From contig JAJDVT010000084.1 in the NCBI GenBank assembly GCA_022826005.1, positions 1-64,000 of the forward strand: a stretch of DNA of 64,000 nucleotides, read 5' to 3'. This stretch comes from Gemmatimonadota bacterium. GTDB lineage: Bacteria; Gemmatimonadota; Gemmatimonadetes; Longimicrobiales; Gaopeijiaceae. The notes below the pieces were generated by a model that saw nothing but the letters and a program-made list of their open reading frames with translations, had not been told where the DNA came from and made no database searches. Below, piece after piece: positions 56,223 through 63,805 of this stretch (its first letter is position 1; each line of letters opens with the position of its first letter). Position numbers and translations under genes: made by a program.

Positions 56223-56852
56223 TTACAGTCCGTTCAGCCCCTCAAGGACTGCGAGAATGTCCTCATTGCTCGGACGCACCCGGTAGTTCGTCTCCACGAA
56301 GCGGTACCTCACGATCCCCTCCTTGTCGATCACGTAGGTCGCGGGGTGGGGCAGCGGGTTGTTCGGCGGCGAGTCCTCCTTGAAGAGGCCGTAGCGGTCG
56401 ATCACGCGGTGGTCCGGGTCGGAGAGCATGATGAAGTCGGGCGCGACGCCGTCGGTGCCGGTCACGCCGTCGATCATCCGCTGCATGCCATCCCGGTCAT
56501 CGACCGACACGGTGACGATCTCGGTGTCGTCCTGCAGTGCGTCGGGGAGAAGGGCTCTCAGCTCCACGAGCTGACGGGTGCAGTACGGTCACCAGTGTCC
56601 CCGGTAGAAGACCAGGACCAGGTTCTTGTCGCCGCGGAAGCCGGCCAGCTCCACGGGTCCCCGGTCGAAGGACTCGAGGGTGAACAGGGGGGCCTCGCTG
56701 CCGACCATGACCCGTTCCAGATCGGTGGCCGGAAGATCGTGCCCGTCCGCGGGTCCGAGGGTCTGGGCGCCGACGGGGGCCGCGGCAAGGAGGAAGGCGG
56801 CGAGGAGCGCGAAGGGAAGCGCGCCGGTTCGGTATCGGATCGAAGCGGTCAT
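56223..56852 (-). CDS. Probable selenoprotein: AhpC/TSA-type peroxiredoxin with UGA at the first Cys of CPYC
   Basis: Read through one in-frame TGA (56589-56591), this is a 209-residue exported thiol oxidoreductase. ATG 56852 begins a signal peptide ending V-G-A-Q. The active-site motif reads V-F-Y-R-G-H-W-(UGA88)-P-Y-C91, where family members have W-C-P-Y-C, so the UGA stands where the peroxidatic Cys belongs. Upstream and downstream parts align as one peroxiredoxin fold: F-T-L-E-S-F and V-L-V-F-Y-R, then V-S-V-D-D, D-P-D-H-R-V-I-D-R-Y-G and A-T-Y-V-I-D-K-E-G. A SECIS-like hairpin begins 14 nt after the UGA. The alternative is a nonsense mutation of a TGC or TGT codon. Confidence 0.78.
56558..56574 (-). 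promoter_or_regulatory. SECIS-like hairpin after the in-frame UGA
   Basis: In the mRNA sense, a 7-bp stem (TCAGCTC paired with GAGCTGA) closes a 3-nt GUG loop. The stem begins 14 nt, and the loop 21 nt, after the UGA. Known bacterial SECIS elements have an apical loop at about this distance with a G among its first two positions, so it fits the pattern. It lies inside the coding region, as expected in bacteria. Confidence 0.6.
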
Positions 56853-56974: not shown

Positions 56975-58630
56975 ATGTGCTCCGTCCTCGCCATCCTCGA
57001 TTTCGATCCCGCCGACCCGCCGGCCCGTGAACGCGTCCTCGCGCTCTCGAAGCTGCAGCGGCACCGCGGACCCGACTGGTCCGGTGTCTTCGCCCATGAA
57101 CGCGCGGTTCTGGCGCACAACCGGCTGGCGATCGTCGATGTGGAGCACGGAGCGCAACCTTTGCTCAACGCGGCCGGGACCCACGTCCTCGCCGTGAACG
57201 GGGAGATCTACAACCACCGGGAGATCCAGGCCCGGCTCCCGTCCTTCCACCCCCGCACGGCAAGCGACTGCGAAGTCATCCTGGGCCTCTACGCAGAGGA
57301 GGGTGGCGCCTTCCTGGATCGCCTCAACGGCATCTTCGCCTTCGTGCTGTACGACCTGGAGCGCGACCGCTACATCATCGCACGCGACCACCTCGGCATC
57401 GTCCCCCTCTACACGGGGCGTGACGACGAGGGCCGGCTCTACGTCGCGTCCGAGATGAAGGCGCTGACCCCCGTCTGCCGCACGGTCTCGGAGTTTCCCC
57501 CCGGCCACGTCCTCGATTCGGCGGACGGCACGGCCCGCCCCTACTACCAACGCAGCTGGCGCGAACACGCGGCCGCCGTCGGCGACCCCGACCCGGCCCG
57601 CATACGGGAAGCGCTCGAGGCCGCCGTCCACCGCCAGATGATGTCCGACGTCCCCTACGGAGTCCTCCTCTCGGGCGGGCTCGACTCGTCGATCATCGCG
57701 GCCGTGACCCGGCGTTTCGCGCGCCACCGCATCGAGGACGACGACCGGACCGAGGCCTGGTGGCCCCGCCTGCACTCGTTCTGCATCGGCCTGGAGGGGT
57801 CGCCCGACCTTGCCAGCGCCAGGACGGTCGCCAGCCACATCGGCACCGTGCACCACGAGTTCCGCTTCACCGTGCAGGAGGGCCTCGACGCGCTCTCCGA
57901 CGTCATACACCACCTCGAGACCTACGACGTGACCACCGTGCGCGCCGCCACCCCGATGTACCTGATGGCGCGCCGCATCCGCACGCTGGGGATCAAGATG
58001 GTGCTGTCGGGCGAAGGGGCCGACGAGGTCTTCGGCGGCTACCTCTACTTCCACCGAGCCCCCGACCCCCGTTCCTTCCACGAGGAGACGGTGCGCAAGC
58101 TCGACCGGCTCCACCAGTTCGACTGTCTGCGGGCCAACAAGGCGATGGCCGCGTGGGGAATCGAGGCGCGCGTGCCCTTCATCGACAAGGAGTTCCTCGA
58201 CGTGGCGATGTCGATCGATCCGGCGGCCAAGATGCCGGCGGGCGGGATCGAGAAGCGGATCCTGCGGGAGGCGTTCGCCGAGTACCTGCCCCCGGAGATC
58301 CTCTGGCGCCAGAAGGAACAGTTCTCCGACGGCGTCGGCTACTCCTGGATCGACGCGCTGAGGGAGCACGCCGAGGCATCCGTCACCGACCGGCAGCTCG
58401 CCAACGCCGCTTTCCGCTTCCCCTGGAACCCTCCGGCGGACAAGGAGGCGTACCTCTACCGGCGGGTCTTCGAATCGCACTTCCCCCTGCCCGACGCGGC
58501 GGCGTGCGTGCCTGGCGGCCCCAGCGTCGCTTGCTCGACCCCGGAGGCACTGGCGTGGGACGCGGAGCTGTCGAAGACGATCGACCCGTCTGGGAGGGCG
58601 GTGGCGGGGGTGCACCGGGCGGCGTATTGA
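56975..58630 (+). CDS. asnB: Asparagine synthase B (glutamine-hydrolysing)
   Basis: A 551-residue enzyme that amidates aspartate with glutamine and ATP. Cys2, exposed after Met removal, is the glutaminase nucleophile. R-H-R-G-P-D, V-N-G-E-I-Y-N-H and the N-terminal nucleophile domain cover residues 1-200. The synthetase domain carries the pyrophosphate-loop motif S233-G-G-L-D-S-S and later S-G-E-G-A-D-E-V-F-G-G-Y, I-D-K-E-F-L-D-V-A-M and K-E-Q-F-S-D-G-V-G. Length is that of the E. coli AsnB type. It is an ordinary housekeeping gene, unrelated to its neighbours. Confidence 0.95.
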   Translation: MCSVLAILDFDPADPPARERVLALSKLQRHRGPDWSGVFAHERAVLAHNRLAIVDVEHGAQPLLNAAGTHVLAVNGEIYNHREIQARLPSFHPRTASDCEVILGLYAEEGGAFLDRLNGIFAFVLYDLERDRYIIARDHLGIVPLYTGRDDEGRLYVASEMKALTPVCRTVSEFPPGHVLDSADGTARPYYQRSWREHAAAVGDPDPARIREALEAAVHRQMMSDVPYGVLLSGGLDSSIIAAVTRRFARHRIEDDDRTEAWWPRLHSFCIGLEGSPDLASARTVASHIGTVHHEFRFTVQEGLDALSDVIHHLETYDVTTVRAATPMYLMARRIRTLGIKMVLSGEGADEVFGGYLYFHRAPDPRSFHEETVRKLDRLHQFDCLRANKAMAAWGIEARVPFIDKEFLDVAMSIDPAAKMPAGGIEKRILREAFAEYLPPEILWRQKEQFSDGVGYSWIDALREHAEASVTDRQLANAAFRFPWNPPADKEAYLYRRVFESHFPLPDAAACVPGGPSVACSTPEALAWDAELSKTIDPSGRAVAGVHRAAY

Positions 58631-58768: not shown

Positions 58769-60148
58769 ATGACGCCGCAGATTGTCGCAACGTGGATCAG
58801 CGACCTGGCCCCCTGCGACCGTTCCAACGGTCCGCGACGGGCCTTCGGATTGCCGGGATCGTGCCTGGTGGCCATCCTCGCCGTGGCCTGCTCCGAAGCA
58901 CCGGCCGAACCCCCACCCCCCGTTTTCACCGTCACCGACAGCGCGGGGGTGCGGATGGTCGTGAACTCGGGCCGGCAGTGGGGCGAGGGGGAGGGATGGC
59001 AGGTGACCGCCGAGCCCGTGGCGACCCTGGGAGCGATGGACTTCCCGGTGGAACAGCAGTTCCAGAACATCGTCGGCGCCACACGATTGAGCAACGGGAC
59101 CATCGTCATCCTCGAACGGGCAGATTTCAGGCTCCGGGCCTTCAACGCCGCCGGAGACCTTCTGTGGACTGCCGGCGGAGTCGGGGACGGTCCGGGGGAA
59201 ATGAGGAGCTATGCCGATACGGGACCGGTCCTTACGAAGCTCAAGGGCGACACCATTCAGGTGCAGAACGGACGTGACCGAATCCGCTACAGCCCCGGTG
59301 GCGAGGTGATCGAGCATGTCAAGCTGGACATCGCGCGATTCCGCCGGTGGGGACCCCTCTACGTCCAGTACTGCCCCTTCGACGTCTATTTTCTCCACGA
59401 AGACATCGTGGTCTGCAACAAGCCGCGACCTGAAAGGCTTCCGGATCCCTGGACCAGCTACCAGACCATCATGCGGACCACTTGGAATCTGGACGGGCTC
59501 GATACGCTTGGTGTCTTTCTCGAGGAGAGCGGCTTCCGGGATCCAACCCATGGTGTTGCCATGCGAACCCCACTGGCGGCCCGCGGGATATTCCGGGTCG
59601 GCGGCGGCCCGGAGCCCCGGCTGCTCTACGCCCGGAACGACAACTACCGGATCGAAGTCTGGGATATCGCGACCAGCCGTCTGGCAATGGTCGTGGAGAG
59701 GCGGGTACCCCGCCGGGTGCGGACGAACGCGGAAGCCGAGGCGCTGGTGCACACCGGGGACGCCGGCTTCTACCACCCCTACGTGTCGGTGGACATGGAC
59801 GCCGGCCATTGGGCACCGATCGATTCCGTCTCCATCGCCGAGGCGCTCTTCCTCGACGATCTCGGCTTCATGTGGGTCCGGCGCGGTCCCACTGCGCTGG
59901 ATGGCGAACACGCCAGGGTGCGGGTGGTCGCCGGGCACGACGACATGGAGTGGACCGTACCGGCTCACTCAGGCCTCCACGACGTATTTCGCCCTGACGG
60001 GGTGTACCTCGGGACCGTGAAGCTGCCCCACAACCTCCGCATCACCGAGATCGGGCCGGACTACATCCTCGGTGTCATGCGGGACGAGATGGATGTCCAG
60101 TACGTGTGGATGTACGGGCTGGACCGGGTTGGGGGAGGGTCGGGATGA
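58769..60148 (+). CDS. Six-bladed beta-propeller lipoprotein, tandem copy 1
   Basis: A 459-residue protein; the hydrophobic segment ends A-V-A-C41, a lipobox, though the N-terminus before it is longer than in the other copies. The motif T-D-S-A-G-V-R-M-V-V-N-S opens the mature domain. Propeller blades share L-S-N-G-T-I-V, G-V-G-D-G-P-G-E-M-R, F-R-R-W-G and F-L-D-D-L-G-F-M-W-V-R-R-G. The end reads M-D-V-Q-Y-V-W-M-Y-G-L-D-R, almost identical in all complete copies. Its TGA overlaps the ATG of copy 2. Function unknown; these lipoproteins are numerous in Gemmatimonadota-like genomes. Confidence 0.85.
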   Translation: MTPQIVATWISDLAPCDRSNGPRRAFGLPGSCLVAILAVACSEAPAEPPPPVFTVTDSAGVRMVVNSGRQWGEGEGWQVTAEPVATLGAMDFPVEQQFQNIVGATRLSNGTIVILERADFRLRAFNAAGDLLWTAGGVGDGPGEMRSYADTGPVLTKLKGDTIQVQNGRDRIRYSPGGEVIEHVKLDIARFRRWGPLYVQYCPFDVYFLHEDIVVCNKPRPERLPDPWTSYQTIMRTTWNLDGLDTLGVFLEESGFRDPTHGVAMRTPLAARGIFRVGGGPEPRLLYARNDNYRIEVWDIATSRLAMVVERRVPRRVRTNAEAEALVHTGDAGFYHPYVSVDMDAGHWAPIDSVSIAEALFLDDLGFMWVRRGPTALDGEHARVRVVAGHDDMEWTVPAHSGLHDVFRPDGVYLGTVKLPHNLRITEIGPDYILGVMRDEMDVQYVWMYGLDRVGGGSG

Positions 60149-61518
60149 GCCGGGGATCGTGCGCCATCGCGAAGCCGGCCCGGGCGCCCCGGCTTCTGGC
60201 ATGCTGGCTGGTCGTGCTCGCCACGGCCTGCTCCGAAGCACCGCAGGAACCTCCACCCCCCGCATTCACCGTCACCGACAGCGCGGGGGTGCGCGTGGTA
60301 GTCAATTCGGGCCAGCAGTGGGGTAAAGGGGAGGGGTGGCAGGTCACCGCCGAGCCCGTTGTCACCCTGGGAGTCAGGGACTATCCCGTCGAGCAGCAAT
60401 TCGAGCGCCTCGGGGGGGCGACGCGGTTGAGCGACGGCACGATCGTCGTGCTCGAACAGCGGGACATGGAGCTTGAGGCCTTCGACGCCTCCGGAGCACT
60501 GCGCTGGACAGCCGGCGGCATCGGGGACGGCCCAGGCGAGACGAGGCCCTACCCCGACACGCGTGCGGTACTGACGAAACTGCCCGGCGACACCCTCCAG
60601 CTGCAGAACGGCCAGGACCGAGTGCGCTTCGGCCCCTCCGGCGAGCTACTCGAGCACCGCAAGGTGGACTACGCGCGATTCCGCCGCTGGGGGCGGATCT
60701 TCCTGCAATACTGCCCCTTCGAAGTCTACTTCGTGCGGGATGAGATAGTGGTCTGCCACGGCATGCAGTTTGAGCCGCCCTTCCCCGACTCCTGGGCCGG
60801 CCGGCACACCATCATGCGAACCACGTGGGATCTGGACCGGCTCGACACGCTCGGCGTCTTCCTGGAAGCGAGCTTCTTCCGTGCAGGCCCCCCCGGGGTC
60901 GCCGTCCGATCCCCACTGGCGGCTCAAGGGATGTTCCGGGTCGCCACCAGTCCCGAACCCAGGCTGCTCTACGCCCGCAACAACGCCTACCGGATCGAGG
61001 TTTGGGACATCCCGGCCGGCACCCTGGCCATGGTCGTGGAGCGGCGGGTCCCGCGCCGCGTACGGTCGCACGAGGAGGCCGACCATCTGTTGCAGAGCGG
61101 GGACCTTGGTACCGTTCGTCTCATGGCCATCGAAATGAACATCGCCATCGACCTGGAGGCGGAGGCGGACAAGGCACATTCGGCGGCCATCGACTCCGTG
61201 TCGATCGCCGAGGCCCTCTTCCTCGACGAACTCGGCTACATGTGGGTCCGGCGCGGCCCCTCTCCGCTGGACGGCGAACACGTGCGAGTGCGGGAGGTCA
61301 CCGGACCCGACGACACGCGCCGGACGATCCGCGCCCCCTCGGGACTCCACGACGTATTCCGGCCGGACGGCGTGTACCTGGGTACGGTGAAGCTGCCCCC
61401 CGACCTTCGCATCACCGAGATCGGCCCGGACTACATTCTCGGCATCGTGCGGGACGAGATGGATGTCCAGTACGTGTGGATGTACGGGCTGGACCGGGGT
61501 GGGGGAGGATCCGGATGA
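60145..61518 (+). CDS. Six-bladed beta-propeller lipoprotein, tandem copy 2
   Basis: A 457-residue paralogue of the preceding gene, beginning at ATG 60145 within the ATGA overlap. Lipobox L-A-T-A-C. Blades show Y-P-V-E-Q-Q-F-E-R-L, F-L-Q-Y-C-P-F-E-V-Y-F-V-R-D and V-W-D-I-P-A-G-T-L-A. Compared with copy 1 it has a short extra acidic helix (about residues 335-350, E-A-E-A-D-K). The two are intact homologues with the same gene order and overlap. Confidence 0.85.
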   Translation: MSRGSCAIAKPARAPRLLACWLVVLATACSEAPQEPPPPAFTVTDSAGVRVVVNSGQQWGKGEGWQVTAEPVVTLGVRDYPVEQQFERLGGATRLSDGTIVVLEQRDMELEAFDASGALRWTAGGIGDGPGETRPYPDTRAVLTKLPGDTLQLQNGQDRVRFGPSGELLEHRKVDYARFRRWGRIFLQYCPFEVYFVRDEIVVCHGMQFEPPFPDSWAGRHTIMRTTWDLDRLDTLGVFLEASFFRAGPPGVAVRSPLAAQGMFRVATSPEPRLLYARNNAYRIEVWDIPAGTLAMVVERRVPRRVRSHEEADHLLQSGDLGTVRLMAIEMNIAIDLEAEADKAHSAAIDSVSIAEALFLDELGYMWVRRGPSPLDGEHVRVREVTGPDDTRRTIRAPSGLHDVFRPDGVYLGTVKLPPDLRITEIGPDYILGIVRDEMDVQYVWMYGLDRGGGGSG

Positions 61519-62456
61519 GCCGCTGGCAGTGCAACGCCCCGAAGTCGACCCGGGGCGGCCGGAATCTGGCCTGCCTGCTGGCCATCCTCGCCACGGCCTG
61601 CTCCGAAGCGCCGCAAGAACCCCCGCCGCCCGCGTTCACCGCCACCGACAGCGCGGGGGTGCGGATCGTCGTCAATTCGGGACCGCGGTGGGGTGAAGGG
61701 GAGGGGTGGCAGGTCACCGCCGAGCCCGTCGTCACCCTGGGAGTCAGAGACTATCCCGTCGAGCAGCAGTTCGTGCGCCTTGGCGAGGCGACGCGGCTGG
61801 GCGATGGCACGATCGTCCTGCTCGAGATAGAGGATATGCAGCTCCGGGCCTTCAATGCCTCCGGAGGTCTGCTGTGGACGGCCGGTGGAGTCGGCGATGG
61901 TCCCGGGGAGACGAGGCCGTACCCCGATACGCGCCCGGTCCTTACGAAGCTCCGGGGCGACACCCTGCAGTTGCAGAACGGCCAGGACCGCATCCGTTTC
62001 AATTCGGCCGGTGAGCTGATCGAGCAGAGGAAGGTTGACTATGCACGCTTTCGCCGGTGGGGGCAGATCGCATCGTGCAGGAAATAGGCCGCGAACGGGC
62101 AGTATTGCAGGAAGATCTGGTCACCGCTCGATTCGGTGTCCATCGCCGAGGACTTCCTGCTCGACGACCTCGGTTTCCTCTGGGTCCGACGGGGCCCGTC
62201 CCCAGCGGAAGGCGACGAGGGAATGCTTCGAGAGTTCACCGCGCCCGACGGCGTGGAGTGGGCAATACCGTCTTCTTCGGGTCTGCACGACGTCTTCCGC
62301 CCCGACGGCGTGTACCTGGGGACCGTGAAGCTGCCCCATGACCTCAGCATCACCGAGATCGGCCCGGACTACATCCTGGGCACGGTCCGCGACGAAGTGG
62401 ACATCCAGTACGTCTGGATGTACGGGCTGGATCGAAGTGAGGGAGGATCCGAATGA
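61515..62456 (+). pseudogene. Six-bladed beta-propeller lipoprotein, tandem copy 3, disrupted by a 56-bp inversion and a deletion
   Basis: ATG 61515 and a lipobox (L-A-T-A-C) begin a normal paralogue, but the frame ends at TAG 62085-62087 after R-R-W-G-Q-I-A-S-C-R-K. The DNA at 62064-62119 is inverted: its reverse complement encodes Q-I-F-L-Q-Y-C-P-F-A-A-Y-F-L-H-D-A-I, the exact segment expected from the other copies. Restoring it gives one continuous 313-codon frame to TGA 62456 that also lacks about 140 middle residues present in copies 2 and 4. The downstream part (S-I-A-E-D-F-L-L-D-D-L-G-F to the end) is otherwise well conserved. The stop overlaps the start of copy 4. Confidence 0.85.
62064..62119. 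repeat. 56-bp inverted segment bounded by 6-bp inverted repeats
   Basis: CAGATC at 62064-62069 and GATCTG at 62114-62119 bound a segment that reads in the wrong orientation relative to its gene. In the opposite orientation the coding frame is continuous. No recombinase gene is nearby, so this is either a one-time rearrangement or a switch driven by an enzyme elsewhere. Confidence 0.8.
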
Positions 62457-63805
62457 GCCGCAGACCACGAACCGCTCCGAATTCCACCTGGGGACGCCTG
62501 CATCTGGCGTGCCTGCCGGTTGCGCTCGCCGCCGCCTGCTCCCAGACCCCTGCCGAACCCCCACCCCCCGCATTCACCGTCACCGACAGCGCCGGCGTAC
62601 GCATGGTCGTGAACTCCGGCCGGCAGTGGGGCGAGGAAGAGGGATGGCAGGTGACCGCCGAGCCCGTCGTGACGCTGGGAGTGATGGACTTCCCGGTGGA
62701 GCAACAGTTCCAGGACATCGTCGGCGCGACGCGGCTCAGTGACGGCACCATCGTCCTGGTCGAACTGGCAGACTTCGGGCTTCGGGCCTTCAACCCCTCC
62801 GGAGACCGTCTGTGGACCGCAGGCGGAGTCGGGGACGGTCCCGGGGAGATGAGGAGCTATCCCGACACGCGGCCGGTTCTGTCGAGACTCGACGGCGACG
62901 TCGTTCAGCTTCAGAACGGGCTCGACCGCATCCGCTACAGCTCCGGCGGCGAGGTGATCGAACACGTCAAGCTGGACTACGGGCGATTCCGCCGGTGGGG
63001 GCGCATCTTCATCCAATACTGCCCCTTCGACGCCTACTTCCTGCAGGACGACATCGTGTTCTGCCACCGTCCGCAACCTGAATCGCCTCCCGATTCCTGG
63101 ACCATTCATCACACGATCATGCGGACCACATGGGATCTGGACGCTGTCGACACGCTGGGAGGGGACTTTCTCGAAGAGAGCTACTTCCGCCAGAGCAGGT
63201 TTCCCATAGCCATACGATCCCCCCTGGCTGCCCGGGGCATCTTCGGGATCGGCGGCGCCCCCCAGCCCAGGCTACTGTACGCCCGCAACGACGAATACCG
63301 GATCGAGGTGTGGGACATCCTGGCCGGAAGCCTTGCGATGGTGGTGGAGAGGCAGGTCCCCCGCCGGGCGCGGACGGACGAGGAGGCCGACTTCCTGGTG
63401 CAAAGCGGCGATGTCCACTACGCTCGCGACTACGTCGACATCGCCGAGAGTGTGGACAAGGCCCATTCGCAGGCGATCGATTCCGTCTCCCTCGCCGAGG
63501 CGCTCTTCCTCGACGAACTCGGGTACATGTGGGTCCGGCGCGGCCCCTCCGGGCTGGATGGCGAACACGCCCGGGTGCGGGAAATCACCGGGCCCGACGG
63601 CAGGCAGTGGACCGTACCGGCTCCCTCGGGCCTCCACGACGTTTTCCGCCCCGACGGCGTGTACCTCGGGACCGTGAAGCTGCCCCACGACCTGCGCATC
63701 ACAGAGATCGGGGCCGACCACATCCTCGGTATCGTGCGAGACGAGATGGACGTGCAGTACGTATGGATGTACGGGCTGGACCGGGGTGGGGGGGAACCGG
63801 GATGA
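62453..63805 (+). CDS. Six-bladed beta-propeller lipoprotein, tandem copy 4
   Basis: A 450-residue intact paralogue beginning at ATG 62453 in the overlap with copy 3. The signal ends A-L-A-A-A-C. Blades carry T-D-S-A-G-V-R-M-V-V-N-S, L-S-D-G-T-I-V-L-V-E, F-I-Q-Y-C-P-F-D-A-Y-F-L-Q-D-D-I and D-E-L-G-Y-M-W-V-R-R-G. It shares long near-identical stretches with copies 1-3, suggesting recent duplication or gene conversion. Confidence 0.85.
   Translation: MSRRPRTAPNSTWGRLHLACLPVALAAACSQTPAEPPPPAFTVTDSAGVRMVVNSGRQWGEEEGWQVTAEPVVTLGVMDFPVEQQFQDIVGATRLSDGTIVLVELADFGLRAFNPSGDRLWTAGGVGDGPGEMRSYPDTRPVLSRLDGDVVQLQNGLDRIRYSSGGEVIEHVKLDYGRFRRWGRIFIQYCPFDAYFLQDDIVFCHRPQPESPPDSWTIHHTIMRTTWDLDAVDTLGGDFLEESYFRQSRFPIAIRSPLAARGIFGIGGAPQPRLLYARNDEYRIEVWDILAGSLAMVVERQVPRRARTDEEADFLVQSGDVHYARDYVDIAESVDKAHSQAIDSVSLAEALFLDELGYMWVRRGPSGLDGEHARVREITGPDGRQWTVPAPSGLHDVFRPDGVYLGTVKLPHDLRITEIGADHILGIVRDEMDVQYVWMYGLDRGGGEPG

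Follow-up and report, generated by a model that had tools for sequence, protein, structure and literature searches.

At positions 56852-56223 on the minus strand of the window (the whole 64,000-nucleotide stretch of Gemmatimonadota DNA analyzed here), a gene for a peroxiredoxin-like protein is interrupted by one in-frame stop codon, which raises the question of whether the gene is broken, is decoded in some unusual way, or is read through the stop as a selenoprotein gene, and if the last, what kind of enzyme it encodes. A sequence-only reading had proposed an exported peroxiredoxin in which UGA replaces an active-site cysteine. The frame has 210 codons, from an ATG start to a TAA stop, and would yield a protein of 209 amino acids with selenocysteine (Sec) at residue 88, which we call Sec-Prx.

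A conserved in-frame UGA and the Sec machinery

The only internal stop of the frame is the TGA at 56589-56591 (minus strand), codon 88 and first position of U-P-Y-C, which reads FYRGHW-(TGA)-PYC, in agreement with the flanks R-G-H-W and P-Y-C reported earlier; the sequence and its conservation both point to Sec at this codon. Mechanical ORF calling divides the frame into pieces of 107 and 114 amino acids. A single AhpC-TSA domain (PF00578, 4.7e-28) nevertheless runs across the TGA from residue 50 to residue 183 and takes in both halves, which bears out the view that they are in-frame parts of one protein; the same Pfam domain is present in all 35 members of set A1. Combined with an AlphaFold2 model, this match delimits an AhpC-TSA/thioredoxin-fold domain of residues about 50-209 (56223-56705, minus strand).

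Close orthologues were found in 71 of 121 genomes of the same taxonomic family, those other than the window's own being 46-84% identical to Sec-Prx. All 71 carry a TGA inside the match, at codon 88 wherever the DNA was read, and their motif is U-P-[YFWH]-C. Such conservation argues beyond chance and upholds the earlier statement that a random nonsense mutation is unlikely. Across a class sample of 394 genomes, the TGA is kept in nearly all orthologues, and only three (L180, L181 and L182, in genomes G187, G222 and G365) have TGC (Cys) at the codon. No tRNA-Sec match was obtained in any of these three genomes, two of which are single-contig assemblies that are 99% complete. Aligned homologues thus have either residue, Sec or Cys, at this position, and Cys is confined to genomes in which no tRNA-Sec was matched. 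In a phylogenetic tree, the three Cys forms cluster with full support and lie within the Sec forms on a weakly supported branch. Because they form one fully supported group inside the Sec forms, the tree suggests a single Sec-to-Cys change. These three class-mates, which have neither tRNA-Sec nor the hairpin described below, amount to a natural experiment: comparing the natural Sec and Cys versions of one enzyme makes it possible to test what Sec costs and what it gains.

The assembly from which the window derives (4.85 Mb in 143 contigs, 97% complete) contains a tRNA-Sec with anticodon TCA (77.9 bits against a cut-off of 47), SelA (483.5 bits), SelB (297 bits), and SelD (L048, 377 bits). Since all four were found, absence of all Sec genes from the genome can no longer be held against Sec insertion. 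The presence of the orthologue also follows that of the machinery within the family. Among the 71 genomes with an orthologue, tRNA-Sec was matched in 64, SelB in 66, and one or both in 69, whereas tRNA-Sec and/or SelB was matched in 27 of the 50 family genomes without an orthologue (Fisher p 5e-9, with kinship of the genomes ignored). SelD L048 has an in-frame TGA of its own, in the context LSHGAG-U-ACK. Given that the UxxK motif is described as a mark of Sec-containing SelD (PMC13188914), L048 itself is a probable selenoprotein by its sequence. A GC-rich inverted repeat was also seen 3' of the UGA in this gene.

Several further observations were made during the survey of homologues. The source assembly holds another Sec-type copy (L010, G000:C12:53058-53576) that is 54% identical to the window protein. 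Along 841 nt, its DNA matches genomes from a different genus in the family at about 97% identity, and this copy was either acquired horizontally or sits on a foreign contig that was binned with the assembly; as the latter may be the case, we did not use it as independent support. An extra TAG in six orthologues was considered as a second recoded codon and rejected, since this TAG is the ordinary terminal stop. Many genomes of the family encode a distant second Prx-like family (L091-L110, e.g., L091 and L095) with the motif FFRGRW-U-PYC and a different hairpin of its own (GAGC...GCTC), and no member of this type was found in the window's own assembly. Peroxiredoxins of Chloroflexi/Dehalococcoidia (L140, L161 and L175) have a TGA exactly on the peroxidatic Cys (FTxG-TGA) and are, judging from their sequences, probable TxxU selenoproteins.

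A hairpin downstream of the UGA and other readings of the stop codon

The hairpin UCAGCUC-GUG-GAGCUGA begins 14 nt 3' of the TGA and occupies 56574-56558 on the minus strand, where the sequence-only reading had located a 7-bp stem with a GUG loop. Published parameters for the bacterial SECIS element call for a loop of 3-9 nt, an upper stem of 4-16 bp, and a G among the first two loop positions (PMC13188914), as well as a distance of 16-37 nt from the UGA and a minimum free energy of at most -7.5 kcal/mol (PMC13188914). The window hairpin falls within every one of these limits, with a loop of 3 nt, a stem of 7 bp, G as first loop base, a loop 21 nt after the UGA, and -8.6 kcal/mol. Folded alone, it is more stable than its shuffles (z -3.5). 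Longer stretches around it show no such advantage (z 0.44 for 51 nt and 0.18 for 42 nt), and for this reason the case for the hairpin rests on conservation and covariation rather than on the energy of a single sequence. An Rfam scan of the 64-kb window gave no match at the gathering score.

Among 69 distinct sequences, the seven stem pairs are formed in 98.3% of cells, and the first loop base is G in all 69. The outermost base pair (18/34) is U-A in 46 sequences and G-C in 20. Compensatory two-sided changes between U-A and G-C at this pair were counted 20 times, compared with 5.8 in shuffles, and none of 500 shuffles reached so high a count, although the number is inflated by related sequences. 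The five inner pairs are invariant and therefore give no covariation signal either way. CTC is used for the stem's Leu codon in 63 of 65 cases, compared with 41% elsewhere in the same gene stretches (p 5e-22). At the equivalent site of the three Cys orthologues, the hairpin is destroyed and the sequence folds at 0 to -0.4 kcal/mol. The downstream element thus agrees with the published bacterial model and has a base pair that covaries.

With this evidence in hand, other explanations of the stop codon can be weighed together. If a nonsense mutation or a sequencing error had struck an ordinary Cys gene, the locus would be a pseudogene. The splitting of the frame by standard ORF calling is the one point in favor of such a history, whereas the frame is intact on both sides of the TGA, the TGA recurs in all 71 family genomes that have the gene and in nearly all class orthologues, and the sole Cys forms occur in genomes lacking a tRNA-Sec match. 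We rejected the pseudogene on the conservation of the TGA and consider it vanishingly improbable. Alternatively, UGA might be decoded as another amino acid under a reassigned code, or be passed by unspecific readthrough, as the in-frame UGA itself, and nothing beyond it, would suggest. This is very improbable: the full Sec machinery and the SECIS hairpin are present, and the TGA column is Cys in relatives. Moreover, several orthologues appear to end normally at a TGA (L017, L040, L042 and L043 extend only if it is read), which argues that the code is not generally reassigned. We thus arrive at Sec as the amino acid that is almost certainly inserted at codon 88, a conclusion drawn from comparison of sequences, and the proposal of a selenoprotein stands on the machinery, the covarying SECIS, and the confinement of Cys to genomes without tRNA-Sec. 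In the most likely course of events, the ribosome would read UGA 88 as Sec with the help of the downstream hairpin, SelB, and tRNA-Sec.

A probable UxxC redox center on a peroxiredoxin fold

The AlphaFold2 model (pLDDT 85, pTM 0.81) places residue 88 directly ahead of helix 89-101. Foldseek matched the model to peroxiredoxins at 4e-11. Its best fold match is AhpE of M. tuberculosis (Z 21.1, rmsd 1.9 over 155 residues), whose profile is also the closest in sequence (E 9e-20). In the alignment to the AhpE profile, Cys91 (56580-56582, minus strand), the UxxC partner of Sec88, pairs with the peroxidatic Cys45 and Sec88 with the conserved Thr42, while the Pro of PxxxTxxC becomes Arg84 and Arg116 becomes Pro170. 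In place of the classical peroxiredoxin motif P-x-x-x-(T/S)-x-x-C with an active-site Arg, the protein therefore has R84-x-x-x-U88-x-x-C91 and Pro170. At the Arg116/Pro170 column, distant relatives in other phyla have Arg if their motif is TxxC and Pro if it is CxxC. Because Sec replaces the Thr of TxxC, and the catalytic Pro and Arg are replaced by Arg and Pro, the center is, as judged from the alignments, a thioredoxin-type UxxC on a peroxiredoxin fold. The designation "peroxiredoxin" accordingly describes the fold correctly but misdescribes the active site. Likewise, the stop does lie on a column that is Cys in relatives, but the peroxidatic position aligns with Cys91.

The family to which such a protein belongs has been described. 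Prx-like thiol:disulfide oxidoreductases with PF00578 and a UxxC or UxxU motif form a published selenoprotein subfamily (PMC13188914, PMC9312934). It is the same as the Prx-like protein of the Sargasso Sea survey and Prx-like 1 of the GOS survey, a high-confidence prediction. The Sargasso Sea paper pointed out that in this family TXXU gives way to a thioredoxin-like UXXC (PMC1088965), and catalogues of prokaryotic selenoproteomes have included UxxC Prx-like proteins from the early surveys onward (PMC13188914, PMC1088965). The thiol:disulfide oxidoreductase activity in the published lists is a predicted one (PMC13188914). Sec-Prx shares with this subfamily PF00578, UxxC, and a UGA followed by a bacterial SECIS. 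Set against the published description of the subfamily, for which WP_010940744.1 is the representative, the Gemmatimonadota group differs in being spread through the sampled class and in having an N-terminal envelope signal.

PrxU and other TxxU peroxiredoxins (NF040737) share the fold and likewise have Sec in the active site, but theirs is at the peroxidatic position whereas that of Sec-Prx is three residues earlier, and the NF040737 score of Sec-Prx is 27.7 bits against a cut-off of 270. The SelL-related redox proteins (NF040769), a family named after the Prx-like selenoprotein SelL, also share the Prx-like fold, and here Sec-Prx scores 40 bits against a cut-off of 120. AhpE, a 1-Cys peroxiredoxin (1xvw, 4xih), is the closest solved fold and closest sequence profile, but has P-x-x-x-T-x-x-C with Arg116 and no Sec, in contrast to R-x-x-x-U-x-x-C with Pro170. 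The TlpA/ResA thiol-disulfide oxidoreductases have in common with Sec-Prx an envelope location, a CxxC-type center, and a Pro before the following strand; the ResA profile match is weaker, however, and sequence, fold ranking, and Pfam all place Sec-Prx with AhpC/TSA. None of the curated NCBIfam models reaches its cut-off for Sec-Prx, and a literature search of incomplete coverage returned no paper on selenoproteins of this Gemmatimonadota group. By its sequence, Sec-Prx is a member of the UxxC Prx-like thiol:disulfide oxidoreductase subfamily (PF00578) and belongs to a new orthologous group; the earlier word "new" therefore applies to the group and not to the family.

What the enzyme does is a separate matter. 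It could be a strict Sec-dependent peroxidase in which Cys91 attacks the peroxide and Sec88 resolves, or the reverse, with protein disulfide exchange not being its job. In favor of this, peroxiredoxins head both the fold and the sequence matches, and Cys91 takes the place of AhpE's peroxidatic Cys45; with scores that lie nearest to peroxidases such as AhpE, some peroxidase activity is possible. On the other hand, of the four catalytic residues that peroxiredoxins conserve, three have been replaced (Pro by Arg84, Thr by Sec88, and Arg by Pro170), and the published UxxC subfamily carries the name of a thiol:disulfide oxidoreductase (PMC13188914, PMC9312934). A strict peroxidase is in our judgment a minority prospect, though a serious one, and we lean toward chemistry of the thiol-disulfide type.

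Probable envelope placement, proposed mechanism and gene neighborhood

Residues 1-29 (56766-56852, minus strand) form a predicted signal peptide with Arg in the n-region, a hydrophobic core, and a predicted cut at VGA/Q, where cleavage would occur. We surveyed the N termini of orthologues by eye and with a simple hydrophobicity count, setting aside L059 and a few other starts. Within the genus, orthologues with a resolved start keep the hydrophobic signal, and A-Q or G-Q closes it in nearly all of them; in more distant orthologues its place is taken by a lipobox (L-x-G/A-C) or an N-terminal membrane anchor, such that nearly all orthologues with a resolved start possess one of the three. The conservation of three signal forms is strong indirect evidence that Sec-Prx is located in the cell envelope, in keeping with the export predicted from sequence earlier. 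DsbA-, DsbG- and TlpA-like proteins, ABC substrate-binding proteins, and the TonB-dependent receptor are exported families. All of these appear among published selenoproteins (PMC13188914), and with several families of exported type in that table, the suggestion that export would be unusual for a selenoprotein does not hold. Taken jointly, that this is a selenoprotein gene and that its product is placed in the envelope is a claim we make with great confidence.

These findings suggest a mechanism in which the signal peptide would take Sec-Prx to the envelope, its likely site of action. There, Sec88, just ahead of the first active-site helix, would be the attacking nucleophile, and Cys91 would resolve the intermediate as a Sec-Cys selenenylsulfide. 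The periplasmic work would most likely be thiol-dependent reduction of oxidized protein thiols (disulfides or sulfenic acids), with peroxide reduction possibly as additional work. A DsbD/CcdA-type electron shuttle may recharge the enzyme; the genome encodes three transmembrane proteins of this type, which could serve as the electron source.

A broader reading, which we offer tentatively, is that Gemmatimonadota possess class-wide envelope selenoenzymes that perform UxxC chemistry on a peroxiredoxin scaffold, with Pro in place of the catalytic Arg and Sec kept nearly always while tRNA-Sec is kept, and that these would constitute a Sec-dependent periplasmic reductase without an assayed relative. 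ORF calling breaks this gene in two and would do the same to its counterparts in some 70 relatives, which makes it easy to overlook a conserved redox enzyme of the Gemmatimonadota envelope.

No conserved operon partner of the Sec-Prx gene was found. A divergent asparagine synthase gene (56975-58630) adjoins it in most of the genus and was not seen as its neighbor beyond the genus. Farther along, at least four similar lipoprotein-like frames lie in tandem on the plus strand at 58769-63805, with starts near 58769, 60106, 61520 and 62453, and one frame of this row looks broken.
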